DNA from: a virus | Reading direction: 5' to 3' (one strand) | IMG/VR virus record: IMGVR_UViG_3300025636_000716 | Location: 1 to 49,334 of that record | Length of the DNA: 49,334 bases | In this document: in pieces, positions 33,335-49,334 of the stretch | Layout: the number at the start of each line of letters is the position of its first letter | Position numbering within the stretch: position 1 is the first letter of the stretch | Translations under genes and position numbers: made by a program | Notes under the pieces: model-generated | The model's database searches: none | Seen by the model: the letters and a program-made list of their open reading frames with translations, nothing else | What the model was told of the DNA's origin: nothing

Positions 33335-33341
33335 AAAGTTC

Positions 33342-33402: not shown

Positions 33403-34530
33403 ATGGCACAAGTTTCAACCGCAGATTTAGATGTACGTTTAGTTCGCCCAAGTGATATACGCTACGAAATTAATTACGCTATGAATCGTAAGCGTCCGGT
33501 CTTTATTTGGGGTCCTCCGGGTATTGGTAAATCTGAGATTGTTGACTCAATCACACAAGATCGTTCAGGCTATATGATTGATATGCGTCTTGCTCTTATG
33601 GAACCCACTGACTTGCGTGGTATCCCAGTACCGAATATAGAAACAGGATTGATGGAATGGCTTCCGCCTGCTGATCTTCCTACTCAAGAACTTGCTGACC
33701 AATTCGAATGTATCACGTTATTTCTTGATGAAATGAATCAAGCACCTCAGTCTGTACAGGCTGCAGCGTATCAGTTGATTCTTAACCGCCGCTTGGGCAA
33801 ATATCGTCTCCCAGATAATGTTAACATTGTGGCAGCCGGTAACCGCGAAAGTGATCGTGGTGTCGCATATCGTATGCCCACTGCACTTGCTAACCGATTT
33901 GTTCATCTTGAAATGACTACGGATTTCGAAGATTGGCAGACATGGGCTTTGCAAAACAATATAGATGCTGAGGTTGTAGGCTATGTTACTGCAAACAAGA
34001 TGGATCTAATGAACTTTGATCCTCGCACTGCATCACGTGCATTTGCTACTCCTCGTTCATGGACGTTTGTATCACAAATGCTTCCAATGGAAGGTGAGCA
34101 AATTTCAGATAGTCGCTTGCACGATTTGATTGCAGGTACAATTGGTGATGGCCTTGCTACTAAATTTATGGCTCACCGTGCAGTAGCAGGAAAACTTCCT
34201 AATCCAACAGATATCTTAAATGGTACAGTCACTACATTAACACCAGAGGCACGTGAAATCTCTGCTATGTTCTCACTTACTGCTTCACTTTGTTACGAAC
34301 TAAAAGATTTCTTGGATCGCCATGGTAAGGAAAAAATGGATGAGTTATACAAAATGGCAGATAACTTTTTTAACTTTATGATGGATAATTTCGAAACAGA
34401 AATGACCGTACTTGGTGGGCGTACTGCATTAAAAGTTTATAAATTACCACTTGAACCTCGTAAAGTTCCTTGCATTGAAAAGTTTTTCAAAAAATATGGT
34501 AAACTAATCATTGATGCTCATAATAATTAA
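33403..34530 (+). CDS. MoxR-like AAA+ ATPase
   Basis: This 375-residue protein has Walker A GPPGIGKS (37-44), Walker B LFLDE (106-110) followed by MNQAP, and the sensor region AAGNRESD (N147). The C-terminal half is helical. MoxR proteins usually act with a VWA-domain partner. The next gene has exactly that domain, preceded by its own promoter. The family is also annotated CobS-like in phages, but the sequence fits MoxR better. Role in the phage unknown. Confidence 0.9.
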   Translation: MAQVSTADLDVRLVRPSDIRYEINYAMNRKRPVFIWGPPGIGKSEIVDSITQDRSGYMIDMRLALMEPTDLRGIPVPNIETGLMEWLPPADLPTQELADQFECITLFLDEMNQAPQSVQAAAYQLILNRRLGKYRLPDNVNIVAAGNRESDRGVAYRMPTALANRFVHLEMTTDFEDWQTWALQNNIDAEVVGYVTANKMDLMNFDPRTASRAFATPRSWTFVSQMLPMEGEQISDSRLHDLIAGTIGDGLATKFMAHRAVAGKLPNPTDILNGTVTTLTPEAREISAMFSLTASLCYELKDFLDRHGKEKMDELYKMADNFFNFMMDNFETEMTVLGGRTALKVYKLPLEPRKVPCIEKFFKKYGKLIIDAHNN

Positions 34531-34534
34531 TTAA

Positions 34535-34563
34535 TAAAAAAGGGCGCTTAGGCGCCTTTTTTC
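34535..34563 (+). terminator. Rho-independent terminator abutting a promoter
   Basis: GGCGC (34543-34547) pairs with GCGCC (34552-34556) around TTAG, with a G-T pair and A/T arms, then a T-run. The -35 TTGACA of the next promoter begins directly after it at 34564. Confidence 0.85.
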
Positions 34564-34592
34564 TTGACAATCTATATAGTAGATGTTATATT
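34564..34592 (+). promoter_or_regulatory. Sigma70-type promoter for the VWA/metallopeptidase gene
   Basis: TTGACA (34564-34569), a 17-base spacer and TATATT (34587-34592), 30 bases before the ATG at 34623. Confidence 0.85.
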
Positions 34593-34622
34593 AATGTTGA
34601 AATAGATGAAAAGGTGTATCTT

Positions 34623-35957
34623 ATGCGAATCGAACCAGAAAAAATTACTACTGAAGACGATTTCAATTCAGTATTTGATGATCTATTAAAAGAAAATGGC
34701 ATTGAAGTTGATGAAAATTCAGACGAACCGGTAGTATTCGAATACACCGATAAAGAAGTCAAAGAAATGATTGTCTCTGGCCGTGTTCGCTTGTTGATTA
34801 AACATCCCTTCTTTGGCACACTTGCTACACGTTTAAAACTAGTGGAAGCAGAATGGTGCCCAACTGCTGCGGTAGATGGCAAGCACTTCTATTATAACTC
34901 AGATTTCTTCCGCACTATGACACCAGAAGAGATTGACTTTATTGTTGGGCACGAGGTATTTCATTGCGTATATGATCATTGTGGTATCGGCAGTCGGTTG
35001 ATGGACTTTGCCGATAATGAACGTGATGCAAAGTTGTGGAATATTGCTGCTGATTATAAAGTTAATCAAGCAACTGTAGAAGCAAAGATTGGCACAATGC
35101 CAAAGCAAGCACTATATGATCGTAAGTATTATAAATCATATACCGAAGAAATTTATCGTGACCTATTGCAACAACAGGAAGACGGTAAAGATTTTAGCGA
35201 TACTGATACACTTGATGAACATATGTTTGGTGATGGTGAAGGTAGTGGCAATGGTGAAAATGATCCTACAGGTCGTAAGGCTCCTATCAAAATCACAAAA
35301 GAAGAAGCAAAAGAAATTAAAGACCAGATGAAACAGGCTGTATTGCAGGCTGCTCAAGCATCTGGTGCTGGCAATCTTCCCGGCGATATCAAGCGCATGA
35401 TTAAAGATATGACAGAACCTAAAATGGATTGGCGTGAATATATTAATCTAAGTATTCAAAGTTCACAAAAAGCAGATTTCACATGGATGCGGCAATCTCG
35501 CAAATCACGTAGTATGGGTATCTATCTACCAGGTATGGATAATGAAGTTATGGTAGATGCTGCAATAGGAATTGATGTATCTGGTTCTATATCTAAAGAT
35601 ATGATCCGTGACTTCTTGGGAGAAATTTATGGAATTATGCAACAATTCCAAGACTTTCGTTTGAAAATATGGACTTTCGATACACAAGTGTATGCTGAAT
35701 CATTTAAAGAATTTACGCCTATGAATTCAGAAGAATTAAAAGAGTATGAAATTATTGGCTGCGGTGGCACTGACTTTGCATGTAACTGGGACTTTATGGA
35801 AGAAAATCAAATTGAACCAGATAAGTTTATCATGTTTACTGATGGTATTCCATTTGGTAGTTGGGGTAATTCAGCATATTGCGATACTCTATTTGTTATT
35901 CATGGGTCAAAGCATATTGTCCCGCCATTCGGCGAATACACATATTACGAATCATAA
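34623..35957 (+). CDS. DUF2201/VWA-like metallopeptidase (partner of MoxR)
   Basis: This ~444-residue protein has an HExxH zinc motif (HEVFH, about 110-114) in its N-terminal half. A Gly/Asp/Glu-rich linker (~195-225) follows, then a VWA-like domain with DVSGS (318-322), the MIDAS metal site. This is the layout of predicted metal-dependent peptidases of COG3864/DUF2201. I chose ATG 34623 for its AAAAGG site rather than GTG 34614. It follows the MoxR-like gene and probably works with it. Confidence 0.88.
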   Translation: MRIEPEKITTEDDFNSVFDDLLKENGIEVDENSDEPVVFEYTDKEVKEMIVSGRVRLLIKHPFFGTLATRLKLVEAEWCPTAAVDGKHFYYNSDFFRTMTPEEIDFIVGHEVFHCVYDHCGIGSRLMDFADNERDAKLWNIAADYKVNQATVEAKIGTMPKQALYDRKYYKSYTEEIYRDLLQQQEDGKDFSDTDTLDEHMFGDGEGSGNGENDPTGRKAPIKITKEEAKEIKDQMKQAVLQAAQASGAGNLPGDIKRMIKDMTEPKMDWREYINLSIQSSQKADFTWMRQSRKSRSMGIYLPGMDNEVMVDAAIGIDVSGSISKDMIRDFLGEIYGIMQQFQDFRLKIWTFDTQVYAESFKEFTPMNSEELKEYEIIGCGGTDFACNWDFMEENQIEPDKFIMFTDGIPFGSWGNSAYCDTLFVIHGSKHIVPPFGEYTYYES

Positions 35958-35968
35958 TAAAATACAAG

Positions 35969-35976
35969 TATAAATA
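35969..35976 (+). promoter_or_regulatory. TATAAATA late-type promoter box, five bases before a start codon
   Basis: This is the exact T4 late consensus, ending five bases before the HNH gene's ATG at 35982. As at 12278-12285, it implies a leaderless or nearly leaderless message. Confidence 0.55.
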
Positions 35977-35981
35977 TAATT

Positions 35982-36521
35982 ATGAGTAATGATACACTAT
36001 TATTAAATGCTAATGGCGCGCCATTAAGTGTGACGCCATTATCCACTTTATCTTGGCAAGAAAGCATAAAACTTATCTGGTTAGATAAGATAAATGTTCT
36101 TGAATGGCATGATTGGACTGTGCATTCTGTTAATCACAGTATGCGCGTACCAAGTGTTATTTGTGTGAGAGAATACATGCCACAAGCAGGCACAATTAAT
36201 TTCTGTCGGGCAAATGTCTTTATACGTGATAGATATACTTGCCAGTATTGTTACAATACATTCAACAAGGCAGATTTAACACTCGATCATATCTTACCAA
36301 GAAGTAAGGGCGGTAGGACTAATTGGCATAATATTGTAAGTGCGTGTAAAAAATGCAATCACGGTAAAGGAAATAATACAAATATTGTTCCCAAAGTTAT
36401 GCCAGATAAACCAAATTTCTATCAAATGTATGGAAGTAAAAATTTTACATTAAACATAAAGCATGAAATTTGGTTAAAATACTTAAATTGGCCAGATGAA
36501 TATGTTAATATGGTTGCATAA
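35982..36521 (+). CDS. HNH endonuclease
   Basis: This 179-residue protein has a clear HNH site. A C87-x2-C90 pair (RYTCQYC) is followed by LDHILPRSKGG (D102, H103), then NIVSACKKCNHGKG (N117, C122-x2-C125, H127). The N-terminal 60 residues are not recognised. Such genes are often stand-alone homing or packaging nucleases. The late-type box argues for late expression. No intron boundaries are visible nearby. Confidence 0.9.
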   Translation: MSNDTLLLNANGAPLSVTPLSTLSWQESIKLIWLDKINVLEWHDWTVHSVNHSMRVPSVICVREYMPQAGTINFCRANVFIRDRYTCQYCYNTFNKADLTLDHILPRSKGGRTNWHNIVSACKKCNHGKGNNTNIVPKVMPDKPNFYQMYGSKNFTLNIKHEIWLKYLNWPDEYVNMVA

Positions 36522-36527
36522 AAACAC

Positions 36528-36556
36528 TTGACAACAATCACTTAATATAGTATAAT
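36528..36556 (+). promoter_or_regulatory. Perfect-consensus sigma70 promoter
   Basis: TTGACA (36528-36533), 17 bases, TATAAT (36551-36556). A 64-base leader precedes the ATG at 36621 behind AGGAGA. Confidence 0.9.
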
Positions 36557-36620
36557 CGTAGTATGAATAAGAGTTTATTCATATTATATATAATAAATTG
36601 ACAAATAGGAGAAACTTAAT

Positions 36621-36878
36621 ATGTCAGAAGAAACTCAAGCACCTGAAGTTGCTACAGAATCACAAGCAGAAGTACCAGCAGTTACAGTTAACGATCTTGT
36701 TAATGTATATGCTATTATTGATCTAGCATCAAAACGCGGCGCATTTCAAGCAGGTGAACTATCCGCAGTAGGCAATACTGCAAATCGTGTTAAAGCATTC
36801 GTAGACCATGTACAAGCACAAAGTGCTGCGGCGGCGGATGAAACAGGTGAAACTGAAACGCCTGAGGCGGCAGGTTAA
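36621..36878 (+). CDS. Unknown acidic early phage protein (85 aa)
   Basis: I do not recognise a function. The acidic, disordered-looking ends (PEVATESQAEV, ADETGETETPEAAG) flank a helical core with AIIDLASKRGAFQAGELSAVG. That core looks like a conserved small T4-like phage gene. The consensus promoter and good ribosome site predict high expression. Confidence 0.75.
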   Translation: MSEETQAPEVATESQAEVPAVTVNDLVNVYAIIDLASKRGAFQAGELSAVGNTANRVKAFVDHVQAQSAAAADETGETETPEAAG

Positions 36879-36883
36879 CAATC

Positions 36884-37531
36884 ATGGCAACTGCACCCTT
36901 TATAAAACACGTTGGTAGACATGCAGGAACAGGACAGCGTTTAAGTGTTGTTTTTATGTCTCTCCCAGATGAACCAGATAGTGCGTTGGCAGTGTATAGT
37001 GATACATTGCCTGACCGCTATCATGATTCGTATATGGAAGCAATTGAGTCAAATGAAGGCCAATCAACTAATAATCTATATGAAGTTCTTTCACGTAAAG
37101 TATTTTGGCACGGCAAAGTAATGCTAGACACACTTCATTCTGAAGGACATCTTTCAAAGATTCCAACAAATCAGATTATTATGACTCCAAATACACAAAC
37201 AAATGTACCATTGAACGAGATCAATGACGCAATGAATTCTACAGAAGACACAACAGTAGAAACTGTAGAACCACAAGAATCAAGAATTGATTCAAATGTT
37301 AAATTATCCAAAGATGATGAAAATAAACAAATTGCGTGGAATCTTTTGGTACAAGCAAACTTGTTGGCTGCAGAAGCAGAAGCAAAGAGACAAGAGGCAT
37401 ATAAGTATGATGCTAGCTTAATTCCGAAAACAAAAAAAGCAGCCAAACCTAAGGCGAAAGCAGCAGTAGATACATCTGCAATTCCAGATGTTCCTAAAAA
37501 GCGCGGACGTCCAAGGAAGTCTGTAACATAA
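36884..37531 (+). CDS. Unknown phage protein with AT-hook-like C-terminus (215 aa)
   Basis: I do not recognise a family. The N-terminal half (HVGRHAGTGQRLSVVFMSLPDEPD, ESNEGQS) looks conserved in phages. The C-terminal half is Ala/Lys-rich and ends PKKRGRPRKS, an AT-hook-type minor-groove DNA-binding motif (R-G-R-P core). A DNA-binding role is likely. The last base overlaps the next start. Confidence 0.75.
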   Translation: MATAPFIKHVGRHAGTGQRLSVVFMSLPDEPDSALAVYSDTLPDRYHDSYMEAIESNEGQSTNNLYEVLSRKVFWHGKVMLDTLHSEGHLSKIPTNQIIMTPNTQTNVPLNEINDAMNSTEDTTVETVEPQESRIDSNVKLSKDDENKQIAWNLLVQANLLAAEAEAKRQEAYKYDASLIPKTKKAAKPKAKAAVDTSAIPDVPKKRGRPRKSVT

Positions 37532-37809
37532 TGTCTGTTAATAGTAAGCGTAGTAGCATTCTAAGTAGAATTGAGCAAGAACGTGTTCGCCAATATGATT
37601 TGGCAGGCAGTGAATATGATGCGAAAAACTCTCCAAATGATTGGATTGCAATAACATCATATTATTTGGCACAGGAAACCAAACGTGCAACTATGCTTAC
37701 TCCCCCAAATTCTAAAGATTTCGAAAGAGAATTAGTAAAAGCGGCTGCAGTTATTTTGGCATCGCTTGAACATATAGAAGTAATGAAGGAACGTGGATAC
37801 CTAAGTTAA
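37531..37809 (+). CDS. Small helical phage protein, possibly MazG/HisE-like (92 aa)
   Basis: I do not recognise it firmly. The motif IEQERVRQYDLAGSEYD, then NDWIAITSYYLAQET and ELVKAAAVILASLEHIEVMK, has the helical character of small nucleotide pyrophosphohydrolase-like phage proteins. The catalytic E-x-x-E-E/E-x-x-D pattern is not clear. The function is open. It is coupled to both neighbours by one-base overlaps. Confidence 0.6.
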   Translation: MSVNSKRSSILSRIEQERVRQYDLAGSEYDAKNSPNDWIAITSYYLAQETKRATMLTPPNSKDFERELVKAAAVILASLEHIEVMKERGYLS

Positions 37810-38396
37810 TGGAACAACTTGACAATTTTATAGAAACTTCTATAAAACAAAACAAAATTTTATGTATAGTACACGCTCCAAGAGCTGGATCTCATGCGTT
37901 CAGTGAATCTATTGCTAAGAAATATAATCTTAAGGAATATATGGAAATATTTCATCCAAAATTTTTAATTGATAAAGAAAAAATGCTGAGACCAAGTATT
38001 GCAAAGATATGTATGATATGGAACGGTATTGGGTCGGGACAAGAAGAATTCATTGACGATGATTGTGCAACAATTAAACTTTTGAGAAGAGATACTGATG
38101 CTCAACTGATAAGTTATCTTAGAGCGGTATATACTAATAAATGGCACTCCAATCATAGCAACACTAAAATTAATCATTCGGCAGATATTGATAATATCAT
38201 ACAGATGGGAGAAAGATATATCAGTATGTGCAATCAATACTCAACTGACATAACAGTATATTACGAAGATTTAGTTACCAGTAAATATTTACAGAATAAT
38301 AGCAAATATAAAAAAATTAGTGTTGATATTGAAATAGAAATGTATCTTCAAAAGTTATACAGAAATTATATTAATAATAAAAGTAGTATGGAATAG
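37809..38396 (+). CDS. Sulfotransferase-like protein
   Basis: This 195-residue protein has an N-terminal P-loop-like segment VHAPRAGSHAFSESI (21-35), corresponding to the PAPS 5'-phosphosulfate loop. Later it has LLRRDTDAQLISYLRAVYT (91-109), like the 3'-phosphate binding helix, and VYYEDL (149-154). It is short for a sulfotransferase and may be a minimal form. A sulfate donor would let it modify a glycan or other small molecule. It is coupled to the gene before it. Confidence 0.6.
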   Translation: MEQLDNFIETSIKQNKILCIVHAPRAGSHAFSESIAKKYNLKEYMEIFHPKFLIDKEKMLRPSIAKICMIWNGIGSGQEEFIDDDCATIKLLRRDTDAQLISYLRAVYTNKWHSNHSNTKINHSADIDNIIQMGERYISMCNQYSTDITVYYEDLVTSKYLQNNSKYKKISVDIEIEMYLQKLYRNYINNKSSME

Positions 38397-38403
38397 AAAT
38401 ACG

Positions 38404-39018
38404 ATGAACAACTATAATCTACTTAACGGTGTGGTAGACTTTGATATAGGTCTGCAGTTAGGATCCGAAATATTAGATTTAATTAAAACTCACACTGGAG
38501 AATTATTTTTCAATGATGGTGTAAATGTACACCTAAACAAAGAACCACAAGACTTTACTGAAAACTATGCTCATATCTCTGATGCTCAATTGTGTCATAT
38601 TCCAATTGTCGAAAATGAATTGATAAAAATATACAAGTATCAATTGATATTTACTGACATGATATACAAAGTACCAGTGCCATTGATTTTGTACAAAGTC
38701 TTTACAACCCACAAATTAGAGGTACAAAAAACAATTATTTCACAATTAGAAAATAATTATAATAAAGATTTAAGTGTATTGTATACCATGGGTTCTAAAT
38801 TTGGAACTCATTTACCCTATCATACAGATCGTTTTGGATGGAGATATCATCAGAATTTACAGTTTTCAGGCGAAACCGCACTTGAATTTATCGATGGAGA
38901 AAAAGTAAAATTAAAAACAAATCAAGCGTACTGCATTACAAGTCCAAATATGCCACACCGTTTGATTGTTGAAAAAAGCAACAGTGAAAGAATATTTCTT
39001 TCTGCAAGCCCGAGGTGA
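38404..39018 (+). CDS. 2OG-Fe(II) oxygenase-like protein
   Basis: This 204-residue protein has H140 and D142 in PYHTDRFGW, H185 in PNMPHRLIV and R196 in SERIFLS. The order and spacing fit a double-stranded beta-helix oxygenase. An intervening QFSGETALEF strand supports the fold. It follows the sulfotransferase-like gene by seven bases. Substrate unknown. Confidence 0.6.
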   Translation: MNNYNLLNGVVDFDIGLQLGSEILDLIKTHTGELFFNDGVNVHLNKEPQDFTENYAHISDAQLCHIPIVENELIKIYKYQLIFTDMIYKVPVPLILYKVFTTHKLEVQKTIISQLENNYNKDLSVLYTMGSKFGTHLPYHTDRFGWRYHQNLQFSGETALEFIDGEKVKLKTNQAYCITSPNMPHRLIVEKSNSERIFLSASPR

Positions 39019-39021
39019 TAT

Positions 39022-39336
39022 ATGGAATTTGATAGAGAAAGTGAATTTGATAGAATAATGGAAGAAGTGATTCCGATTAGTATTCCATCTTCATTTATTA
39101 AAGGTATTAAAGTTATCATGCGAAATGGACATGAGGTTATACTTAGTGGGGAGGATCTATTATCGCCGCTTCCACTTAGTGGTGACTTTAGTTGGACAGA
39201 TATGGCAAAGAACTTCGAAGCAATTGATGATGTCGAAATATTACTTGATATCCCAAATTTGCGTGAAAGCGTAGTAAAAAGTGTAAAAGAAATTTTAAAA
39301 CAACATTTTCAAAGCTATAAGGATGAAGACAAGTAA
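39022..39336 (+). CDS. Unknown small phage protein (104 aa)
   Basis: I do not recognise it. It has an acidic N-terminus, a central IKGIKVIMRNGHEVILSGEDLL and an acidic helical end. It starts three bases after the previous stop and its stop abuts the thyA start. Confidence 0.7.
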   Translation: MEFDRESEFDRIMEEVIPISIPSSFIKGIKVIMRNGHEVILSGEDLLSPLPLSGDFSWTDMAKNFEAIDDVEILLDIPNLRESVVKSVKEILKQHFQSYKDEDK

Positions 39337-40206
39337 ATGGCAAACTATGAAGAAGATGAATACCTTGATTTACTATATACAGTATTGAAAAATGGCGAAC
39401 CGAAAAACAATGAGCGTACTGGAGTAGGAACACTATCTACATTCCTGAATACAAGTCGCTACAATCTCAGTAACGGTTTCCCATTACTAACTACAAAACG
39501 TGTACCATTTAAATCAGTATTAAGTGAATTACTTTGGTTTCTTGAAGGATCACAAAATGAACGGAGACTTGCAGAAATTCATTATGGCAAGCCTAGAACA
39601 GAACTAATAGGCAAAACTACTATATGGACTGCTAATGCTGACAATCAAGGTGTTGCATTGGGACATTATAATAGTGATACTAATAAAGATTTAGGACCAG
39701 TATATGGAGTACAATGGAGAAACTTCAATGGTATCGATCAAATCCAACAGTTAGTACAAGGATTAAAAAATAACCCACAATCACGTAGGCATATTTTAAA
39801 TTCTTGGAATGTTGGAGCATTGAGCAAAATGGCATTACCGCCCTGTCATGTTATGTCGCAGTTCTATGTAAGTAATGATGGGAAGTTAAGTTGTAGTTTA
39901 TATCAACGTAGTGCAGACTTATTCTTGGGAGTTCCATTTAATATTGCAAGTTATTCATTATTAACATATATGCTTGCACACGTTTGTAAATACGATGTAG
40001 GCGAATTTATTCACGTTATAGGTGATGGTCATATATATAATAATCATATAGAGGCTGTTGAGGAGCAACTACAGCGCCCTACAAGAGCCTTTCCTAAGTT
40101 AGTAATAAAACGTGACGTAAATTCAATATTTGATTTTAAAATGAATGATTTTGAAGTAGTAGGCTATGATCCAGGTGAAACTATTCGAGCACCAATGGCA
40201 GTTTAA
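39337..40206 (+). CDS. thyA: Thymidylate synthase
   Basis: This 289-residue ThyA has NERTGVGTLSTF, LLTTKRVPFKSV, ELLWFLEGS, the catalytic Cys C170 in LPPCHVMSQ, SRRHILNSWN, QRSADLFLGVPFN and GDGHIYNNH. It methylates dUMP to dTMP with methylene-tetrahydrofolate. It is slightly longer than E. coli ThyA (264). The start abuts the preceding stop, and a terminator follows. It is a standard phage nucleotide gene. Confidence 0.97.
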   Translation: MANYEEDEYLDLLYTVLKNGEPKNNERTGVGTLSTFLNTSRYNLSNGFPLLTTKRVPFKSVLSELLWFLEGSQNERRLAEIHYGKPRTELIGKTTIWTANADNQGVALGHYNSDTNKDLGPVYGVQWRNFNGIDQIQQLVQGLKNNPQSRRHILNSWNVGALSKMALPPCHVMSQFYVSNDGKLSCSLYQRSADLFLGVPFNIASYSLLTYMLAHVCKYDVGEFIHVIGDGHIYNNHIEAVEEQLQRPTRAFPKLVIKRDVNSIFDFKMNDFEVVGYDPGETIRAPMAV

Positions 40207-40210
40207 AAAG

Positions 40211-40236
40211 AAAAGCACCTTACGGTGCTTTTTTTA
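40211..40236. terminator. Bidirectional terminator between thyA and a minus-strand gene
   Basis: AAAAGCACC pairs with GGTGCTTTT around TTAC, with T-runs on both sides. It separates the converging thyA and radical SAM transcripts. The stop of the minus-strand gene lies on its right arm. Confidence 0.85.
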
Positions 40237-41346
40237 TATCTTACGTTTTGGTATTTTTGAATCTGCACTACTAACACAACTCTTACTTATACATGGCATT
40301 GGTTTGTCAAATAGTTTAAATCCACTTTCGATATATCCCAATGGCTGGTCTGCACAACTATAACTACGTTTTATACTACCGTCTGGTTCACGTATTATTA
40401 TACCTTGATACCCACTGTTACAACTCCAGCCTTCAAAGTTATTAAAGTTAAATGCATTAAAACGCTCAGCCTGATCCATATACCATTTCTTACCTTTTGA
40501 GTCTGTAAACTCTACTTGCATATGCCAAGGTACACTTTTATCATTTTGACCAATCGCATACTCTGGAACTTGAAAGTTGGGTTTTGGTCTATCATTCCAT
40601 TTACGTTTCACCTCGGTATATGCAAGTTGTGGCATGCCATTCCATAATCTTTCCATCTGTTCTTCTGTATATCCATCAACTACACGGCTTGCTGTGGGAT
40701 CAGATTGTGGTTTCAATGTTACATTAATACCTTGTTCATGAAAAAATAATGCGTTGTCCCAATCACGTTCAAACCAGTCTGGGACCATAACCATATTCAC
40801 TGTAATTTGTACGTCATTTTCTTGACACAATATAAGTTTATCTGCAAACTCTTGCATCTTATCTCTTGTATTAAGATGCTCAGTATGTAAACTAGCAGTG
40901 ATACTTGCACGATGAAATGGTTTAACTCGCTCTACATAATCCTCATGCCATTTAACATTACGTGACATATTAGTTGTCATATGGACACTTGTGTAGTTAG
41001 TATTTGATACATCATCTGCAAGATGACTCAAAATGTCCAAGTAGCCAGGGTGGAAAGTGGGTTCGCCACCAGATAACGAGAAGTGAAAACTATTAAATCC
41101 GTTTTCACGTGCTTGTCTCTTTATCTCATCTATGGTGTGTAGACATAGTTCCGTAGGACGGTGGTCTTTACGGTCACTGCGGGCATAAGGCCAACAGTAG
41201 GAGCATTTGTAATTACAGAATCTTCCGAGGAGCCAACTAACAGTGAATAGGTCACGATACAGCAAAGTACGCTGTCCAACACTAACAATATCGTCAAAGG
41301 GTATTTTTGTAAAGTCATAATTAGACCATTTTAAATCTTCATTCAT
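40234..41346 (-). CDS. Radical SAM protein with C-terminal Cys cluster
   Basis: This 370-residue protein has CNYKCSYC (C44, C48, C51) and LSGGEPTFHPG. A C-terminal region with several Cys (WSCNSG, SYSCADQ, MPCISKSC) could bind an auxiliary cluster. The start lies about five to seven bases beyond a perfect TTGACA-17-TATAAT on the minus strand, so the message may be leaderless. It differs from the four twitch proteins upstream, which have their Cys cluster at the N-terminus. Substrate unknown. Confidence 0.82.
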   Translation of the reverse strand: MNEDLKWSNYDFTKIPFDDIVSVGQRTLLYRDLFTVSWLLGRFCNYKCSYCWPYARSDRKDHRPTELCLHTIDEIKRQARENGFNSFHFSLSGGEPTFHPGYLDILSHLADDVSNTNYTSVHMTTNMSRNVKWHEDYVERVKPFHRASITASLHTEHLNTRDKMQEFADKLILCQENDVQITVNMVMVPDWFERDWDNALFFHEQGINVTLKPQSDPTASRVVDGYTEEQMERLWNGMPQLAYTEVKRKWNDRPKPNFQVPEYAIGQNDKSVPWHMQVEFTDSKGKKWYMDQAERFNAFNFNNFEGWSCNSGYQGIIIREPDGSIKRSYSCADQPLGYIESGFKLFDKPMPCISKSCVSSADSKIPKRKI

Positions 41347-41351
41347 AATGT

Positions 41352-41380
41352 ATTATAGCATCCGTTGTGTATATTGTCAA
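41352..41380 (-). promoter_or_regulatory. Perfect-consensus sigma70 promoter (minus strand)
   Basis: On the minus strand, TTGACA (41380-41375), 17 bases, TATAAT (41357-41352). The ATG at 41346 is only five bases beyond the -10. Confidence 0.85.
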
Positions 41381-41394
41381 GTTAATAGTAACTT

Positions 41395-42033
41395 TTATAC
41401 TTTAAATTCTGTTATATCTAAACTAAACTGATTTGTTTGAATCCAATTTATAATCTTATATGCAAATAATCTACAGTTTTTGTCGCTAAAATGATTGGCA
41501 CGAGGATCTTGTTGAGTACTCATCAAGTCGCCATCTAAATTAGAAATCTCATTCAGTGGTATGTAATTAGAAATTTGTTTTGGGAATTGAAAGCCAGAGA
41601 GATATAATCCATCAGGTAGTGTGCGCATCATATCTGCAATTTGAAGGGACCAATTATCTGTTTGTTCTTCTTCATTAACAATATATTTGTAATATGACTT
41701 TAATGCCTTTTTCATAATTGATCTAGTACCAATAGGAATTGATGTTCTATATTTTATTACGTCTAAGTCATGAACATGCTCTAGATTCCAGTCTTCTGGT
41801 AAATGCGGCATCCAAAGTCTATTGGGAGTAGTCATACAAACAATAACCTTGTCATATTTTCGGTAATTATCTTGAAACTGTTTCCATGTATAATACATAC
41901 TAGACCCAGCTTGCCCGTAGTTGTCTATGCTTATATCAGGACATTCTTGTTGAACATACTGCCACCATTGCAAATGGTTAGGGTCATCTGCCTTATGTTT
42001 TGCATAACTATCGCCAAATACCCCTATTTTCAT
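41395..42033 (-). CDS. SGNH/GDSL hydrolase-like protein
   Basis: This 212-residue protein starts MKIGVFGDSYAKH (S9 in the GDS block). It then has GQAGSS (about 40-45), TTPNRLW (N71) and a C-terminal DPRANHF with D176 and H181. These are the blocks of SGNH hydrolases, which often deacylate sugars or lipids. It overlaps the end of the upstream radical SAM gene by four bases. Such a hydrolase fits a glycan-tailoring cluster. Confidence 0.7.
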   Translation of the reverse strand: MKIGVFGDSYAKHKADDPNHLQWWQYVQQECPDISIDNYGQAGSSMYYTWKQFQDNYRKYDKVIVCMTTPNRLWMPHLPEDWNLEHVHDLDVIKYRTSIPIGTRSIMKKALKSYYKYIVNEEEQTDNWSLQIADMMRTLPDGLYLSGFQFPKQISNYIPLNEISNLDGDLMSTQQDPRANHFSDKNCRLFAYKIINWIQTNQFSLDITEFKV

Positions 42034-43184
42034 TTTTTAAACTCCGGTATTAACTCAAACAAGTTTTCATCTCTACTAGCATCTAATGTAGTAGTATAGG
42101 ACAAGAACTTACTGTATTTATCGTGCCAATCTTCTGCATACATATAGTCAATAATACCTTGCACTTTATCCAAATGCAAATATGGTTGCAACTGTTTTGC
42201 TGCCTGGTCTTTTAAATGTTCGGGCAACACTCTAATGTTTAGTTCTTCTGGATGATTGAGAATGTTGAAGTATATTCTATGTCCATACGGCTTAGCCCAT
42301 TCTATTAGTTCATGCAGTCTAAGTATATTGTACATTTGTACTGTGCAGTGTATTTCAATACCCGCGTTAGGCAGTTGTCTAATCTTTTCAAAGTTCTTTA
42401 CAATCGTATCCCATTTACTAGGATGTCTAATATAACGATCTAATGCACCTGTTGCATCTATTGAACAATTAAGTTGTACTCTCTTAAAGTGATGCCAGCG
42501 TTCTAGTAACCATGGAGGCAACTTAACTAAATTAGTATTGTACTTTAACCGAATGTTCTGTGCAGTGCCGTTGACAATAAAGTAATCTAATAATTTCTTC
42601 TGTTCTTTAATAACAGTAGGCTCACCACCAGTTAAGTATATTTCGTCAACAGTGTGCGCAATACTAAACAAGTTCTCCCAAGTCTTTTCGTGCTCAGGCC
42701 AGTCCATACTACTAAGACGTTTGTACTCACTTTCGCTCAGTGCGTCTTCAACTAAGTTCCATTCCTTAACCCACATATTACTTGCATAAGGATTGCACAT
42801 ACGACATTTTAAATTACATAAGTTTCCTAATCGTAAATCAACATACTTTATGTCAAACGGTGCTTCTTCTGTGTATTCTTTATCTTCTGTCCATTTGTTG
42901 TTCCAGCTTTGTCTAGCACTTTTGATGCCAACGTCTTCTTCTCTAAAACAACGCTGACAAATTTTAGGACGTTCGCCTTCTAGCATCTGCTTGCGTATAT
43001 TAGTATATACTTCACTATTCCAGGCTTCTTCTAAATTATCTCGATTTAATTTATAAGGAGTGCCGTCTTCTTTAGTAATAAAGTTTTTTCCTGGAGTGCT
43101 ATTACAGCATACCCGCAAGTTTCCGCTTGCATTAGTTGCAAGGTGCATCCATGGTAAGATACAAAATGTTTTAGACTGAGTCAT
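42030..43184 (-). CDS. Twitch-domain radical SAM protein (a)
   Basis: This 384-residue protein starts FCILPWMHLATNASG with CC at 26-27 and ICQRCF (C76, C79), the N-terminal 'twitch'/SPASM-like cluster domain. The radical SAM site is LGNLCNLKCRMC (C123, C127, C130), followed by YLTGGEPTVIKEQ. It belongs to the same family as the three genes upstream and shares their layout. It overlaps its neighbours. Substrate unknown. Confidence 0.88.
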   Translation of the reverse strand: MTQSKTFCILPWMHLATNASGNLRVCCNSTPGKNFITKEDGTPYKLNRDNLEEAWNSEVYTNIRKQMLEGERPKICQRCFREEDVGIKSARQSWNNKWTEDKEYTEEAPFDIKYVDLRLGNLCNLKCRMCNPYASNMWVKEWNLVEDALSESEYKRLSSMDWPEHEKTWENLFSIAHTVDEIYLTGGEPTVIKEQKKLLDYFIVNGTAQNIRLKYNTNLVKLPPWLLERWHHFKRVQLNCSIDATGALDRYIRHPSKWDTIVKNFEKIRQLPNAGIEIHCTVQMYNILRLHELIEWAKPYGHRIYFNILNHPEELNIRVLPEHLKDQAAKQLQPYLHLDKVQGIIDYMYAEDWHDKYSKFLSYTTTLDASRDENLFELIPEFKK

Positions 43185-44262
43185 ATATCTTAATTCCTAT
43201 ATCATCTAATAAATGCGGAAGCACTATTTTTAAATTTTGGTTTCTTAGTTTATCTAACTTAGCACTATAAGTTATGAACTGTTTATATAATACAAGATCA
43301 ACTGGTGTCTTCATTAATTCAATAACGCTTTTAATTTTAGCATCATCTAGTGTACTTAACTGAGCAAGTATATCATGCTTACTAGATTCGGGAATAACGT
43401 TAACTGCCATATAACCTGGATTGTTAAGTACTATCCAGTTTATTCTTTCACTGAATAATTTTGTAAATTCTGCTACATGATGCACTGTGGTATTTTGAAT
43501 AACATAATTATAAGATAATTTTATGTTTGGCAATGATCTAAATTGTTCTACTTTTTCTAAACATTCATTCCAAGACTGTGTACTATCTCCTCGAACATAT
43601 TCATATACATCATACAAACCGTCGATGCTTACTTGTAAATCAACTTCAATATTAGTAATGGCTGCTGCAAACCAATCTGGAAATAATGTGCCGTTTGTAA
43701 TACAATTAATTTTAATTGTTTTTGTTTTTGATAATTCTTTTAGTTGTTCAAAGAAATACCTCGAGTGTGTGTGCATTAAAGGTTCGCCGCCTTTAAGTTC
43801 AATTGTAATGCGCTTATCAAGTGTTGAGAGAAATGCAATTAATGAATCAATCTGCTTCTCATCTAGCTGAAAACTAGTTAACTCATGTTTAGGAATACCT
43901 AAAGCAATACTGTCACTAAACCAACTTGTGCTGCTATGATGATTACACATTCTACATTTTAAGTTACAATAGTTTCCTAAACTTAAATCTAATAAAAAAT
44001 CATCATCAGTAAATATAGTTTCGTATCGCTGACGACGGCTACTTACGTTATTACTTTCGTCAAAACTACATGACTTACATTCTGCCGTCCATCCCTGTGC
44101 TAAACTATCAGTTAACTTGTCAAAATTTATATCATTGAAATTTTCATAAGTGTCTAATCTACCAAAGTCTCCTCGGTATTTGCAGCACGGACTAACAGTG
44201 CCCACGGCATCAATAGTAATACTATTAGTTGTCGCAAAACATTTAATCATAATATCTAGCAA
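43171..44262 (-). CDS. Twitch-domain radical SAM protein (b)
   Basis: This 363-residue paralogue has the cluster LGNYCNLKCRMC (C99, C103, C106), the N-terminal Cys set (C8, C26-C27, C62, C65) and ELKGGEPLMH. It is the shortest of the four. A second in-frame Met (MIKCFATT) four residues later is an alternative start. It overlaps both neighbours. Substrate unknown. Confidence 0.85.
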   Translation of the reverse strand: MLDIMIKCFATTNSITIDAVGTVSPCCKYRGDFGRLDTYENFNDINFDKLTDSLAQGWTAECKSCSFDESNNVSSRRQRYETIFTDDDFLLDLSLGNYCNLKCRMCNHHSSTSWFSDSIALGIPKHELTSFQLDEKQIDSLIAFLSTLDKRITIELKGGEPLMHTHSRYFFEQLKELSKTKTIKINCITNGTLFPDWFAAAITNIEVDLQVSIDGLYDVYEYVRGDSTQSWNECLEKVEQFRSLPNIKLSYNYVIQNTTVHHVAEFTKLFSERINWIVLNNPGYMAVNVIPESSKHDILAQLSTLDDAKIKSVIELMKTPVDLVLYKQFITYSAKLDKLRNQNLKIVLPHLLDDIGIKIYDSV

Positions 44263-45523
44263 TCTCTAGTGTGTCAAAACTTTGGTTTTTATATGTGTCT
44301 TTTAACCTAGTTACCTTTAAAAATTCATCAGTTATGTCTGCTTGCTGTGGTTGATTAATTTTATTTTTAATATTAGTAAGAAACTTACTAAACATGTTAG
44401 AATTTACAATTGGACAATTGCTTACACAAGGAACATCTTTAGGTTTTAAATCATGAAGACATAAACAATTATTTTCAGTCCACGGAGTTGTTTTTGGATC
44501 AAACTGTTTTTCTAAAGTATCAATCATGTCTAATGCTGCATCTTTAAGATTCTTCGGAACATTTCTTACATCTAAATACGCAGGTGTATCTAACGCAATA
44601 ACATTTATATTAAAATTATATTTTTTAGATAGTTCTACCATATTCTTAATTTCAAGAATGTTGTATGCTTGAAGCGTAAATGTAATTGCAGTAACTATTT
44701 GAGTTGTTTGTAATTCCGATAACTTCTGTAGTTTAGTGTTAACATCATTCCAATTAGCAGGATGTCTTATGTATTCAAACGTATTACCTACACCATCTAT
44801 GCTGCAAATAATATTTACAAATTTAAATTCTTTAAATAATTCAATCCATTCGTCATCTATTAAGGTTACATTTGTTATTATAATTAGATCAATTTTGTTA
44901 GCATAATTATTTTTAACACAATAATCAATGAGTTTTTTTACACTAGGGACCATTAAAGGCTCGCCGCCTGTAAATTTTAAATGGCGTAATCCATTTATAA
45001 TCATATCTTTTATCGTGTCTACAAACTCATCTTGAAGATACCATTTGTTTTGTACAAAGTTTTTTTCGTGTTCATCTAATCCTAAATCAATACCCGTATC
45101 ATTAAGTATCTTTTTAAATTCATTTGCTACACCACTACTACTATAACTACTACACATTCTGCAACTTAAATTACAGTAATTTCCTAGTTTAAGATCAAGT
45201 TCAACTGGGTACAGTTTTGTTGTTTCGATACTGTTTACGAACTTATCCCACATCTTTTGATTTTTATATCTATCAACAAACTGATTCCGTAAACTCGATA
45301 TACCCGCATCTTCTTTTTTCCAACAACTTTTACAAATCTCTGGCCTGCCACCTGATAGCATATCTTTCTTGACACGATCTCTTAAATCATTCCAATGTTC
45401 ACTTAGTCCACCTATAAACTTATCTTTGTCTTGAGTCACCGCGTTACAACATAACCTATTTTTGCCCATTGTGTTTACACATAGGTGATCCCAGACTGCA
45501 GGACAAATTGTATCTAACTTCAT
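44243..45523 (-). CDS. Twitch-domain radical SAM protein (c)
   Basis: This 426-residue paralogue has LGNYCNLSCRMC (C117, C121, C124), the N-terminal Cys set (CPAVWDHLC, LCC, ICKSCW) and KFTGGEPLMVPS. Unlike the others, it has an extra Cys-rich tail (NNCLCLHD, VPCVSNCP, about 365-388) that may bind a further cluster. It is separated from the oxygenase-like gene by an ATG/stop overlap. Confidence 0.87.
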   Translation of the reverse strand: MKLDTICPAVWDHLCVNTMGKNRLCCNAVTQDKDKFIGGLSEHWNDLRDRVKKDMLSGGRPEICKSCWKKEDAGISSLRNQFVDRYKNQKMWDKFVNSIETTKLYPVELDLKLGNYCNLSCRMCSSYSSSGVANEFKKILNDTGIDLGLDEHEKNFVQNKWYLQDEFVDTIKDMIINGLRHLKFTGGEPLMVPSVKKLIDYCVKNNYANKIDLIIITNVTLIDDEWIELFKEFKFVNIICSIDGVGNTFEYIRHPANWNDVNTKLQKLSELQTTQIVTAITFTLQAYNILEIKNMVELSKKYNFNINVIALDTPAYLDVRNVPKNLKDAALDMIDTLEKQFDPKTTPWTENNCLCLHDLKPKDVPCVSNCPIVNSNMFSKFLTNIKNKINQPQQADITDEFLKVTRLKDTYKNQSFDTLEIARYYD

Positions 45524-46395
45524 TTTACTTCTCTAAGAAATGTTAATAATAGTCCCATCTTGGTTGTCCAGTGCTTTTCTTTATAACCTTTATTAGTTGC
45601 ATGTAATTGAACAGCATCAAATACAATAGGTGCACGTGGTTTCCATTCGCATGTTAACTCGGGTGTAAGTCCAGTTAAACGTCTATATGGTGTGTAGTAT
45701 AAATATTTCTCATAATGTTCTTCATCATACTTTTTTGTATTGTCTGTTTGCTTGGAACCGTCTAGTAGATGAAAGTCAATTGTATTGTGATCTGTAACGA
45801 TTGGGTATGTTGTAGCAGTTTCATGGCCTGGTTTCATTCCGTGGTTATAAACGTGTGCAAAGTCTACGTGCCTCTGGTCAAATGCAACCATATGACTTTC
45901 AACATTGTTAGGAGCAGTAAATAATGGAATAATAATGTTGCGCCAAGGTACATATTTTCTACCTTCTTGTTCTATTGGTGTTTTTTCTAAACTTGTTATC
46001 CAATCACTTTCTCTAGTACTATCATTGTGCAACCCATACTGGCTAGGGGTAATAAAGAAGTTTCCGCCAACTACAGGAGAATTTTCTGCACCAGGAACCA
46101 TTTGATTTATTCTGTCTGCAAACTTTTCGTACACACCTTGTAAATTGCCACTAACAAACATTGTACCGTTAGCGTTGTGTCTTACTTTACCGCAACGGCT
46201 AAATGCATAACCATAGATCCATTCTATCTCCTTTTCAGTAAATGCTTCGTCAAATTTTTCAGCATGTTGAAAGTTGTCTGCAATATTTTGCTGCACAGTT
46301 GGATCTTTTAAATTTGCAAGCCAATGTTCATATTCTAATCTATAATTTTTATGATTGTCAATGTCTTCTTGACTGTTAATATTAGATATCATCAA
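45520..46395 (-). CDS. 2OG-Fe(II) oxygenase-like protein
   Basis: This 291-residue protein has GLHNDSTRES (H123, D125), QLHATNKG (H265) and a basic residue near the end (K279, TTKMGLLL). The strand PWRNIIIPLFTAPN is typical of the core. It sits between twitch radical SAM genes and overlaps both. It is longer than the other oxygenase-like genes here. Substrate unknown. Confidence 0.6.
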   Translation of the reverse strand: MMISNINSQEDIDNHKNYRLEYEHWLANLKDPTVQQNIADNFQHAEKFDEAFTEKEIEWIYGYAFSRCGKVRHNANGTMFVSGNLQGVYEKFADRINQMVPGAENSPVVGGNFFITPSQYGLHNDSTRESDWITSLEKTPIEQEGRKYVPWRNIIIPLFTAPNNVESHMVAFDQRHVDFAHVYNHGMKPGHETATTYPIVTDHNTIDFHLLDGSKQTDNTKKYDEEHYEKYLYYTPYRRLTGLTPELTCEWKPRAPIVFDAVQLHATNKGYKEKHWTTKMGLLLTFLREVK

Positions 46396-47794
46396 ATATT
46401 CCTTTCATTTCTGGAAATACACTGCTAAAACTATTATTACGTTGTCTATCACATAATCCTAAAAATTCTTTCATCTCAGGCAACCGTTGGCTCCAGTCTT
46501 CACTTTCCATAAAGCTAAGTATACCATCTAAACGTTTAATACCATACTCAGCACTTCGCCAATCTTCATATGTAACTTTACCTTTGTGCCAACTAGGTAT
46601 TCCAAGTTCCCAGTTTTCTTCCCACCATGGATACCATGCTTCATACTTTGCTCTACACTTTTCTTTAAAATCTTTAGGTAAACTCTTTACATTCAAATAT
46701 GCTGGCCAGTATACAAAGTGTTGACTAATACCGCCTGCGCCGAACGGCCACATGTTAATTTTCTTAAACTTTTGTTCTAGTTTCCATTGAATAAAATCCG
46801 GTAAGTAATACACATTAAGTGCTTGGACTGCACACGCTATAGTAACTTCTACATTATTACTCGTTTGTGTATCAAGTAAATGGAAAACTTCTTCTTGCCT
46901 ACTCCACTCGCTTGGGTAACGAATGTAGTCATTCATCTCATTGATACTATCAATACTATAGTGGAATCGTACTAGTTTAAATTCTTTCCATAGGTCAAAC
47001 AAATCATCACGCCATTCAACTCCATTTGAGTTATAACGCAGTTCTAAGTCTTTTGCATAGCCCATCTTAATAGCATGTTCAAGTATCTCATAATGTTCTT
47101 CGATGATAAGACTTTCACCGCCTGCAAAATATATTTGTTGCATGCTAGGCATTTGTTCATAAAACTGTTTCCAAAACGTAGGGTTTTGTTTATGCCAGTT
47201 GTAGCTACTGCCATTAGTGCTACCTTTATCTTGCCATTGCATAATCTCTTTGAGAGATTCATTCTTTACTTCTGGAAATATCTTTTTATAATCTTTTATC
47301 CAACCACTACTATCATGTGGGCTACACATAACACACGCTAGTTGACACTTAGTACCAAAACGTAAATCAATGTATGCCAAGTTGGGTGGCACTTCCCCGT
47401 CCGGTTGTGTATCAGCAAGGATTTTATCCAAATCAACTCGCTTGCTCCAATAGTGCGTTTCCCATTGTCGTTTACTGCGATGCCCAGCTGCTTCTTCTTT
47501 AAAGCACTTTAAGCAACTGGGAGGTTTCTCACCATTGAGCATCTGTACTCTGACATTTTTCATGTATGTGCTGTTCCATGCTGTCTGGAAATCACTTACA
47601 TTTAAGTTGTTGGGCTTACCGTCATCTGTTTTAAGTATGCCTACTTGGCCGCCGTGTTCTTTGTCATTAGTAGATCCAACGCTACTAGCATTTGCAGTAC
47701 AACATACACGCATACTACCATCAGGTCTTGTACTAAGATGTACCCAGGGCAATAAGCAAAATGTTTCTGATGGATATTTTGATTCATTTGTCAT
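46382..47794 (-). CDS. Twitch-domain radical SAM protein (d)
   Basis: This 470-residue protein is the largest of the four. It has TFCLLPWVHLSTRPDGS, CC (31-32), SCLKCF (C94, C97) and the cluster RFGTKCQLACVMC (C150, C154, C157), then FAGGESLIIEEH. A GATAAATA box on the minus strand lies eight bases before its ATG. It overlaps the oxygenase-like gene downstream. Substrate unknown. Confidence 0.87.
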   Translation of the reverse strand: MTNESKYPSETFCLLPWVHLSTRPDGSMRVCCTANASSVGSTNDKEHGGQVGILKTDDGKPNNLNVSDFQTAWNSTYMKNVRVQMLNGEKPPSCLKCFKEEAAGHRSKRQWETHYWSKRVDLDKILADTQPDGEVPPNLAYIDLRFGTKCQLACVMCSPHDSSGWIKDYKKIFPEVKNESLKEIMQWQDKGSTNGSSYNWHKQNPTFWKQFYEQMPSMQQIYFAGGESLIIEEHYEILEHAIKMGYAKDLELRYNSNGVEWRDDLFDLWKEFKLVRFHYSIDSINEMNDYIRYPSEWSRQEEVFHLLDTQTSNNVEVTIACAVQALNVYYLPDFIQWKLEQKFKKINMWPFGAGGISQHFVYWPAYLNVKSLPKDFKEKCRAKYEAWYPWWEENWELGIPSWHKGKVTYEDWRSAEYGIKRLDGILSFMESEDWSQRLPEMKEFLGLCDRQRNNSFSSVFPEMKGIFDDI

Positions 47795-47802: not shown

Positions 47803-47810
47803 TATTTATC
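47803..47810 (-). promoter_or_regulatory. GATAAATA late-type promoter box (minus strand)
   Basis: Read on the minus strand it ends eight bases before the ATG at 47794. It may start the downstream twitch radical SAM/oxygenase/SGNH operon. It overlaps the last codons of the preceding gene. Confidence 0.5.
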
Positions 47811-48732
47811 TCTCTGCTAGTTTAAAGTTTAAATCTTTGGTTTGCTCAGTTAGTAAAAATGCTATAAAATTATTTACTAACAGCGTTTCATTACCAAAGT
47901 CGTTATAGACAGTTGCATACTGTGTTATTGTTCTTGTAAAGTTGCTAGAATTTATTACTTCATCAATAATGCTTATATAGCTAGCGGATTCTAAGTAATC
48001 ATAAAAGTCACGGGCATCTTCCCAGGGCCAATCAGTGTTTCCATTTTTATCATAACCTGACCAAACAGGTCGAGGTACAGATGGGTACAACGAAGGAACT
48101 AACTGGTCGCCAAACTGTTGTATACTAGCAGCTATAGTAGATGTTCCTAGTATCTCAATAATATCATTATCAGTCTTAATATGTTTTATTATACGAGCGT
48201 TTGATTTAATGAAATCAAGAGAATATGTGTCAATATTTAATGCACTAATAAATCCCCTTAGGGGCAATCCTAGATACCTTCTAACAAAATTTAAATGATT
48301 GCCTGGATGTGATGCTATACTAAGATCCTTTTCAACTCTCCAACACGGATAATTAAAGGCACCGTGTTGATATAATTCTTTTATTAGTATACAAAATTGA
48401 CCAAATTCTTTAGCTTTAAATACAGGATTATGTCTAGTTTTAAAAAAGTTAAAGTTAAATTCAGTAAGAACACTATCTATTTTTCGACACGACTTTTTAA
48501 ATTTAGAAAAGCTGCCATTATATTTAAAGTTGCGTTGATACGTTAAATAATTACTTTTATCTGGTACTCGAAAATATCCCATCGGGATCATTGCCGGCTT
48601 TATTGGTTCATTTAACTCTACAAAGTAATATTGATGGGTTTTTATAAACTTGCGCCAGGCTTTTTTACCATATAACTTGTTAGACTCATTGTTATTGACA
48701 CCAAGTAAAGCGCCTTGTTTCCAAATATTCAT
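47806..48732 (-). CDS. Unknown phage protein (308 aa)
   Basis: I do not recognise a family. It is a soluble, Phe/Tyr/Lys-rich protein with WRKFIKTHQYYFVELNEP near the start and WSGYDKNGNTDWPWEDARDF in the middle. No membrane helix or obvious catalytic motif is seen. It overlaps the upstream sialate-synthetase-like gene by one base. A role in the same sugar pathway is possible only by position. Confidence 0.75.
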   Translation of the reverse strand: MNIWKQGALLGVNNNESNKLYGKKAWRKFIKTHQYYFVELNEPIKPAMIPMGYFRVPDKSNYLTYQRNFKYNGSFSKFKKSCRKIDSVLTEFNFNFFKTRHNPVFKAKEFGQFCILIKELYQHGAFNYPCWRVEKDLSIASHPGNHLNFVRRYLGLPLRGFISALNIDTYSLDFIKSNARIIKHIKTDNDIIEILGTSTIAASIQQFGDQLVPSLYPSVPRPVWSGYDKNGNTDWPWEDARDFYDYLESASYISIIDEVINSSNFTRTITQYATVYNDFGNETLLVNNFIAFLLTEQTKDLNFKLAER

Positions 48733-49334
48733 TACTTTATTCGACCTTTAAAAGTGTTAATACTTTGTTCTACATAATCAAGTTGCCATGGTGCATCCAA
48801 CTCTTGAAAAACATTTTGTATATAAGGAACTATCTTTTTTCCTAGCCATTCAAACGGTAAGTTATTATCATTATCAAACAATACATTTCTACGCATTACC
48901 CAAAAATTACCGTTACAATAATATATATTACCTGCACTGTTCTTATCGTTAACTTTTGTATCGCTGCGAATTAAGTCTTGATCTATCCAAGTATCTAACA
49001 ATCCATCAATGATTTTATGTGCTCTAAATGGATTAAACATATTCATTTCGCTTACACTTACTACACTATCATTATCGCCTAACATGTCAATTGCTTCATC
49101 TAATGCAGCAGAATCAATTCCAGTAACATTTCCTAATAATAAAACTACAATATCTTGCTTGCCCAAATCTTTTTCAATTTCATTTACGCCGTGACGAATA
49201 GCTTCTAAATGACTACAGTTATCTAAACACAGTTCAGGTGGTCGATTAATAACATTGAAGTTATAATGTTTACTAAGATCCATTATAACAGTGTCATCTG
49301 TGCTACAATACACATGCTGTATTATATTACTACC
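48732..49334 (-). CDS. Acylneuraminate cytidylyltransferase-like protein (CMP-sialate synthetase), 5' end off the window
   Basis: The frame stays open to the window edge (IQHVYCSTDDTVIM), so the N-terminus is cut and internal GTG 49313 is unlikely to be the real start. Recognisable parts are VSTDD-like YCSTDD, NRPPELCLD, VVLLLGNVTG, DSVVSVSEMNMFNPFRA and YYCNGNFWVMRR. These match CMP-sialic acid synthetases, which activate sialic-acid-like sugars with CTP. Which sugar is unknown. It suggests that the cluster decorates a glycan. Confidence 0.7.
   Translation of the reverse strand, partial: GSNIIQHVYCSTDDTVIMDLSKHYNFNVINRPPELCLDNCSHLEAIRHGVNEIEKDLGKQDIVVLLLGNVTGIDSAALDEAIDMLGDNDSVVSVSEMNMFNPFRAHKIIDGLLDTWIDQDLIRSDTKVNDKNSAGNIYYCNGNFWVMRRNVLFDNDNNLPFEWLGKKIVPYIQNVFQELDAPWQLDYVEQSINTFKGRIK

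Follow-up and report, generated by a model that had tools for sequence, protein, structure and literature searches.

The window analysed here is the whole of the virus record IMGVR_UViG_3300025636_000716, a linear DNA of 49,334 bp with a T4-like replication set, whose DNA polymerase is nearest to those of Sinorhizobium phage Phosso and Agrobacterium phage Atu_ph07 (45-49%). One end of it is occupied by a run of nine minus-strand genes, five of which belong to the radical S-adenosylmethionine (SAM) superfamily (Table 1); the record has nine PF04055 matches altogether. In the order of transcription, the run consists of a NeuA-like gene, u308, rA, OG291, rB, rC, rD, an SGNH-like gene and rE, separated by -1, +11, -14, -4, -20, -14, -4 and +48 bp. 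With spacings of -20 to +48 bp, the nine genes read as one translationally coupled operon, and the overlaps that had been proposed from rA to the SGNH-like gene are present at all five junctions. Ratios of nonsynonymous to synonymous substitution rates (dN/dS) of 0.03-0.5 for all operon genes, where dS is unsaturated, denote purifying selection and thus indicate that these open reading frames (ORFs) are real genes; together with the existence of orthologues, they rule out chance ORFs.

Table 1. Genes of the operon, in order of transcription, and the exchangeable segment within it (window positions).
Feature	Position	Strand	Evidence or remark
NeuA/PseF-like acylneuraminate cytidylyltransferase	48732..49334	-	PseF E 2.3e-8 (sub-cut-off); 5' end cut by window end
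u308	47806..48732	-	No family match; only beside NeuA-like gene
rSAM-A (rA), upstream bookend, N-terminal twitch radical SAM	46382..47794	-	NF033640 420.5 bits
OG291, putative 2-oxoglutarate (2OG)/Fe(II)-dependent oxygenase	45520..46395	-	H123-x-D125...H265; model pLDDT 87.2
rSAM-B (rB), N-terminal twitch radical SAM, optional Cys tail	44243..45523	-	NF033640 285.7 bits
rSAM-C (rC), N-terminal twitch radical SAM	43171..44262	-	NF033640 184.7 bits
rSAM-D (rD), N-terminal twitch radical SAM	42030..43184	-	NF033640 407.7 bits
SGNH-like protein	41395..42033	-	GDS at residues 7-9; DxRxxH near C-terminus
rSAM-E (rE), downstream bookend, C-terminal Cys set	40234..41346	-	PF04055 3.6e-15
Exchangeable cassette between bookends	41381..46389		L063/L064 DNA comparison

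All five radical-SAM proteins score above the PF04055 cut-off, and their CX3CX2C motif is invariant in orthologues. Four of them, rA to rD, also exceed the curated cut-off of 170 bits for NF033640, the twitch domain-containing radical SAM family, and rA, rC and rD have PF13186 SPASM matches at their N-termini. The original prediction of four twitch radical-SAM genes in a row therefore stands as regards their family, but the oxygenase gene sits after rA, so that only three are strictly adjacent. The fifth gene, rE, belongs to the operon beside these four; it fails the NF033640 cut-off (46.2 bits, part of the model only).

The N-terminal auxiliary cysteine set attributed to the four twitch proteins was recovered in each of them, C8, C26, C76 and C79 (rD numbering) being invariant along with CX3CX2C. 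Among 16 diverse family members, C8, C76, C79 and C123/C127/C130 (same numbering) are invariant, and 81/81 rA orthologues keep C13, C31, C32, C94, C97, C150, C154 and C157 (rA numbering). In rE, C44/C48/C51 and C309 are each conserved in 43/43 sequences and C331/C352/C357 in 41/41; the C-terminal set that C309 forms with C331, C352 and C357 rules out that rE is a radical-SAM protein devoid of auxiliary cysteines. An extra cysteine tail does exist in one copy, namely rB (C353, C355, C366, C370), but it is not essential, since only 2/7 orthologues carry it.

The four twitch genes had been described as tandem paralogues. Local duplication is not supported, however: their pairwise identities are 20-32% (BLAST), and they fall into different clades with bacterial proteins. 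Identities and tree exclude a recent tandem duplication, and, judged in this way, rA to rD are old, separate lineages. Identities to bacterial proteins are 61% between rA and a Halobacteriovoraceae homologue, 62% between rE and a Halobacteriovoraceae protein encoded next to an rA homologue, and 51% between rD and a protein encoded on a Bdellovibrionia chromosome. Orthologues of rC occur in the viral loci L011, L012 and L024, with a weaker one in L087 (L-, G- and v-numbers denote loci, genomes or contigs, and viral protein families, respectively).

The remaining operon genes can be assigned with varying precision. OG291 has no match in Pfam, NCBIfam or PHROG; its metal-binding-type triad is nevertheless invariant in an alignment of 16 homologues, and the PDB matches listed by Foldseek for its structure model are nearly all 2OG/Fe(II) oxygenases, with modest TM-scores. 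Motif and fold thus agree with the oxygenase-like gene that had been predicted. The SGNH-like protein has no Pfam match; its GDS and DxRxxH motifs (canonical block V: DxxH) are kept in most of 10 homologues. The reading of the neighbour as sialate-synthetase-like is supported by its full-length orthologue in L011, which matches the solved CMP-Neu5Ac synthetase 6ifd (5.4e-16), the copy in the window being below the PseF cut-off. NeuA is optional, as L016 and L062 lack it and keep rB, rD and OG291. It is accompanied by u308 in L011, L012, L024 and L087; u308 itself has no family match, and its structure model is of low confidence (pLDDT 45).

With rA as the query, viral contigs yielded 234 relatives, of which 80 loci were kept (81 with the window), rA identity across these 80 being 81-93%. 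All 43 loci that contain both rA and rE have them on the same strand, with 0-9 genes in between (median 5; radical-SAM median 3), and these intervals have 30 distinct contents. Upstream, the radical-SAM family v1 is present in 68/72 loci with enough sequence, and v2 or v9 in 65. These comparisons show a core made of rA and rE, usually with v1, the glycosyltransferase (GT)-like v3/v9 and the methyltransferase-like v2 upstream, and further genes that are swapped between and upstream of them. The label GT-like for v3/v9 reflects motif reading and sub-threshold GT2 matches, and the assignments of v2 as a methyltransferase and of PP-loop proteins are motif readings. Across the 81 loci there are 655 radical-SAM-motif genes in 110 clusters at 38% identity, a count that may run slightly high as it relies on CX3CX2C; PF04055 matches number 4-22 in each of 47 records.

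The cassettes of these relatives combine twitch radical-SAM genes with oxygenase, SGNH, PP-loop, amidinotransferase, carbamoyltransferase or NeuA genes. The amidinotransferase, v66, matches StrB1 at 1e-25 (L031, L033, L037), and the carbamoyltransferase is NodU-like; an amidinotransferase is not found among the genes of the window's operon. No PDB match was obtained for the PP-loop protein (cluster 10) or for v95, nor any match in the phage collection for the GT-like v44. At L048:12568-15060, a radical-SAM domain is followed, in one viral ORF of 830 residues, by what motif reading suggests is a PP-loop ATPase-like portion bearing QueC-like cysteines.

Replacement of the cassette can be followed between near-identical backbones. 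The DNA of L063/L064 is 94-95% identical to that of the window at 33042-37808 and 39018-41380, after which nothing matches until rA (46390-47771, 77%), the break falling 34 bp before rE. The window's gene order recurs in L011/L012 and L087 and partly in L016, L024 and L062. Relative to L012, dS is 0.25-0.41 for u308 and NeuA and 0.95-1.7 for rA to rD, a mosaic which indicates that parts of the operon move separately. Apart from this, u195 and the gene for a hydroxylase-like protein of 204 residues (37809-39017, plus strand) are precisely missing from the 94% identical L063/L064.

The surroundings of the island are seen in two long relatives; the window itself lacks the baseplate side. In G007 (about 58-118 kb) and G031 (about 35-58 kb), the island adjoins baseplate genes, identified via HTVC008M homologues, that mostly have the same reading direction. 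In G007, G001 and G016, v54 at the head of the island is preceded at 23-35 bp by the T4-type late promoter string TATAAATA, which is suggestive of a late promoter there. The window has 2 such sites versus 9.6 expected, as if the string were reserved for late promoters; neither is a plausible start for the operon, and TATAAATA was thus rejected as its promoter in the window.

Bacterial genomes were scanned with a 3-sequence alignment as query, which gave 56 loci, mostly in Bdellovibrionota metagenome-assembled genomes (MAGs); a few of them (L111, L123, L133) resemble phage contigs. The NF033640 family has 1-20 copies per genome in 28 genomes, and 77/119 copies have another within 3 kb. The clustering, on whose conservation elsewhere the original prediction depended, is accordingly found in related loci of both viruses and bacteria. 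Polysaccharide loci harbour the family in Zetaproteobacteria, Polaromonas and Verrucomicrobiota, and a twitch radical-SAM gene of Methylocystis rosea is located beside TylF (L158). In the zetaproteobacterial locus L143, three more twitch genes stand next to RmlC, RmlD, an ABC2 permease, TylF and WbsX, and a single ORF (L143:5419-7983, in a MAG) has the architecture ABC_tran+Wzt_C+SPASM+Radical_SAM. Other fusions are Sulfotransfer_3+methyltransferase+SPASM+radical SAM (L157) and SPASM+radical SAM+methyltransferase (L162). Within 15 kb of family members in the 28 genomes, carbamoyltransferase (8/37 versus 0.76 expected, P 1.5e-6), Wzt_C (4/11 versus 0.08, P 1.6e-6) and TylF (3/7 versus 0.05, P 2.4e-5) are enriched, with approximate P values because genomes are partly dependent, and with Wzt_C and TylF signals from three genomes each. 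A literature search returned nothing relevant on radical SAM in Bdellovibrio polysaccharide. As a separate observation, the Bdellovibrionia contig G048 contig 1 (917 kb) carries at least 13 twitch radical-SAM genes within about 30 kb (745-775 kb; L173, L174), and a v66 homologue, amidinotransferase-like, lies in this group.

SPASM/twitch enzymes apply the 5'-deoxyadenosyl radical to sugars as well as peptides, and homology gives no substrate. On balance, we favor the reading that the genes form a glycan-tailoring operon within a large exchangeable radical-SAM island of a T4-like marine virus. Glycan modification had been suggested from the NeuA-like neighbour, which indeed lies inside the tightly packed operon. 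The suggestion gains from the bacterial polysaccharide loci, the Wzt and sulfotransferase/methyltransferase fusions, the co-localization and a Halobacteriovoraceae island with GT2 genes (see below); the glycan product is still something that we infer. Exchange of cassettes between near-identical backbones, the mosaic dS and the 30 contents in 43 loci are also in keeping with it, as are the StrB1-like amidinotransferase and NodU-like carbamoyltransferase of related viral islands, the position next to baseplate genes and the TATAAATA string before v54.

Several observations weigh on the other side. Among solved structures, the closest in sequence is that of SkfB, which is a peptide maturase, and the family to which the twitch genes belong has no known substrate. 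The viral GT-like genes reach only sub-threshold GT2 matches, v2 has no family match, NeuA is missing from several relatives, and no flippase, polymerase or ABC exporter was recognized among the operon genes; the bacterial relatives have Wzm/Wzt. The window stops inside the NeuA-like gene, the upstream portion lying beyond it. Evidence from the promoter motif is weak, and TATAAATA is absent before v54 in G031. Lastly, most Bdellovibrionota copies are in radical-SAM-only groups amid housekeeping genes.

If the products are glycans, the core enzymes would make a sugar scaffold. The CX3CX2C cluster and SAM would generate the 5'-deoxyadenosyl radical, which would take a hydrogen from a sugar carbon, while the cysteine-rich domain would hold an auxiliary Fe-S cluster; epimerized, oxidized, deoxygenated or rearranged sugars might result. 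OG291 may then hydroxylate, the SGNH-like protein may move or remove acyl groups, and NeuA may activate a nonulosonic acid. Either the virion tail or the host surface would carry the product, whose structure would change when cassettes are exchanged, as in serotype switching, with serotype-like variation, protection from co-infection or a changed host receptor as the possible benefit. Here we infer that a sugar is the substrate, and likewise the C-H bond attacked, the acceptor, the order in which the enzymes act and the benefit. A broader, more tentative proposal is that of a combinatorial system, in which a fixed radical-SAM core makes the scaffold and swappable radical-SAM, oxygenase, acyl and nonulosonate cassettes might confer a lineage-specific serotype, based on a glycan made by radical chemistry, on virions or infected hosts; the system would draw on islands that predatory Bdellovibrionota also have.

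The alternative that survives best, albeit an unlikely one, is that the radical-SAM enzymes and the oxygenase act on a virion protein, such as a tail fibre or baseplate component, or on a peptide akin to ribosomally synthesized and post-translationally modified peptides (RiPPs). SPASM/twitch enzymes are classic peptide maturases, and the SkfB match is joined by many NCBIfam cross-matches to RiPP maturases; B12-binding radical-SAM genes at the opposite window end have matches to C-/P-methyltransferase models, and proximity to baseplate genes would suit a virion substrate. However, gaps of -20 to +48 bp leave no room for a precursor peptide gene beside the maturases, and none is present in the operon, while the bacterial relatives are fused to Wzt and co-localized with polysaccharide genes. 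Less probable still is that the islands make diffusible, aminoglycoside- or orthosomycin-like natural products during infection. A StrB1-like amidinotransferase and a NodU-type carbamoyltransferase represent antibiotic-tailoring chemistry, the module of Campylobacter phage CP220 has an amidinotransferase, and EvdO2, HygX and SnoN are among the fold matches of OG291. Those matches are general 2OG ones with low TM-scores, however, no resistance or export gene was seen in the window's operon, and the Wzt_C fusion and ABC-exporter neighbours indicate polysaccharide.

Modification of an already modified base of the viral DNA appears very improbable. FolE-, QueE- and TGT-like window genes (motif reading) do point to 7-deazaguanine DNA, and phage DNA can be hypermodified by glycosyltransferases, according to work cited in PMC12619734, but the island sits with late structural genes rather than with DNA metabolism, and its bacterial relatives lie on chromosomes, close to surface-polysaccharide genes. 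The least credible option is auxiliary metabolism helping the host under low oxygen, as proposed for CP220/CPt10 (Timms et al., 2010; PMC2853527), given that related loci occur across many marine virus records and that the 81 loci hold over 100 divergent radical-SAM clusters, which fits diversification better than one fixed metabolic step.

Swapped radical-SAM modules were already known; what is new here is the bookend arrangement, the link to the N-twitch family, the counterpart islands of bacteria and the evidence for a polysaccharide role. The largest difference between CP220 and CPt10 is an unrelated, functionally alike cluster with five radical-SAM genes and an amidinotransferase, regarded as an interchangeable module (Timms et al., 2010; PMC2853527). 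These phages (FN667788, L194) resemble the window group in being T4-like and in having a radical-SAM run replaced between close relatives; in the window the replacement is at 41380, and the baseplate side is known from G007 and G031. The CP220 module is compact, with five radical-SAM genes after baseplate genes and two sugar-transferase-like genes, and its amidinotransferase is 29% identical to v66. Its radical-SAM genes, unlike rA to rD, are not N-twitch members (best 31 bits, cut-off 170), and no conserved bookends were described. In pelagimyophages, which are also T4-like and marine, radical-SAM cassettes are reported to have been inserted into a hypervariable host-recognition cluster beside tail genes, with glycosyltransferases (2020; PMC7029224). 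Pelagimyophage HTVC008M has no NF033640 match, and the window group has a separate uncultured backbone with a cassette site defined by rA and rE. TARA_ERS488813_N000010, a 183 kb T4-like genome with 12 radical-SAM genes (PMC5332604), was compared by description only; that description concerns Fe-S metabolism, without cassette exchange or a glycan link.

Two further systems have NF033640-like genes. Vibrio phage K566 (OZ196521) carries a run of four at 161-168 kb, of which two exceed the cut-off, and one more at 178 kb; they are 25% identical to rD and interleaved with GT-like genes. No rE orthologue was found in the phage collection, K566 included. In the Halobacteriovoraceae island (G059 contig 9, 328 kb; 70-106 kb), v1, rA and rE homologues are adjacent (46/62/64% identity to the viral families), together with four GT2 genes, additional twitch radical-SAM genes and genes resembling v9 and v2. 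In contrast to the viral loci, this island is chromosomal and has no cassette between rA and rE.

Other plus-strand genes of the window deserve mention. A second island at its other end (993-6038) comprises three more radical-SAM genes with sub-cut-off matches to B12-dependent methyltransferases (PhpK, RiPP C-methyltransferase), adjoined by an Asp/Asn hydroxylase-like gene. An 888-residue protein (17468-20134) has a long Ala/Glu repeat tract and a barrel-like C-terminal end, autotransporter-like by eye. The TGT/DpdA-like, GTP cyclohydrolase-like and QueE-like genes at 21673-26749, identified by motif reading, probably serve 7-deazaguanine DNA modification. An SbmA/BacA-type peptide transporter of 345 residues (31121-32158; 1e-59 to solved SbmA) is unusual for a phage.

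With as many as 22 radical-SAM genes in 72 kb, contigs of marine viruses represent a very dense store of uncharacterized radical enzymes. The idea can be tested in bacteria, thanks to the Wzt-radical SAM fusion and the Halobacteriovoraceae island, and in cultured phages, with Vibrio phage K566 and Campylobacter phage CP220. If sugars are the substrates, these islands would show how viruses diversify surface chemistry and would give NF033640 its first substrate class.

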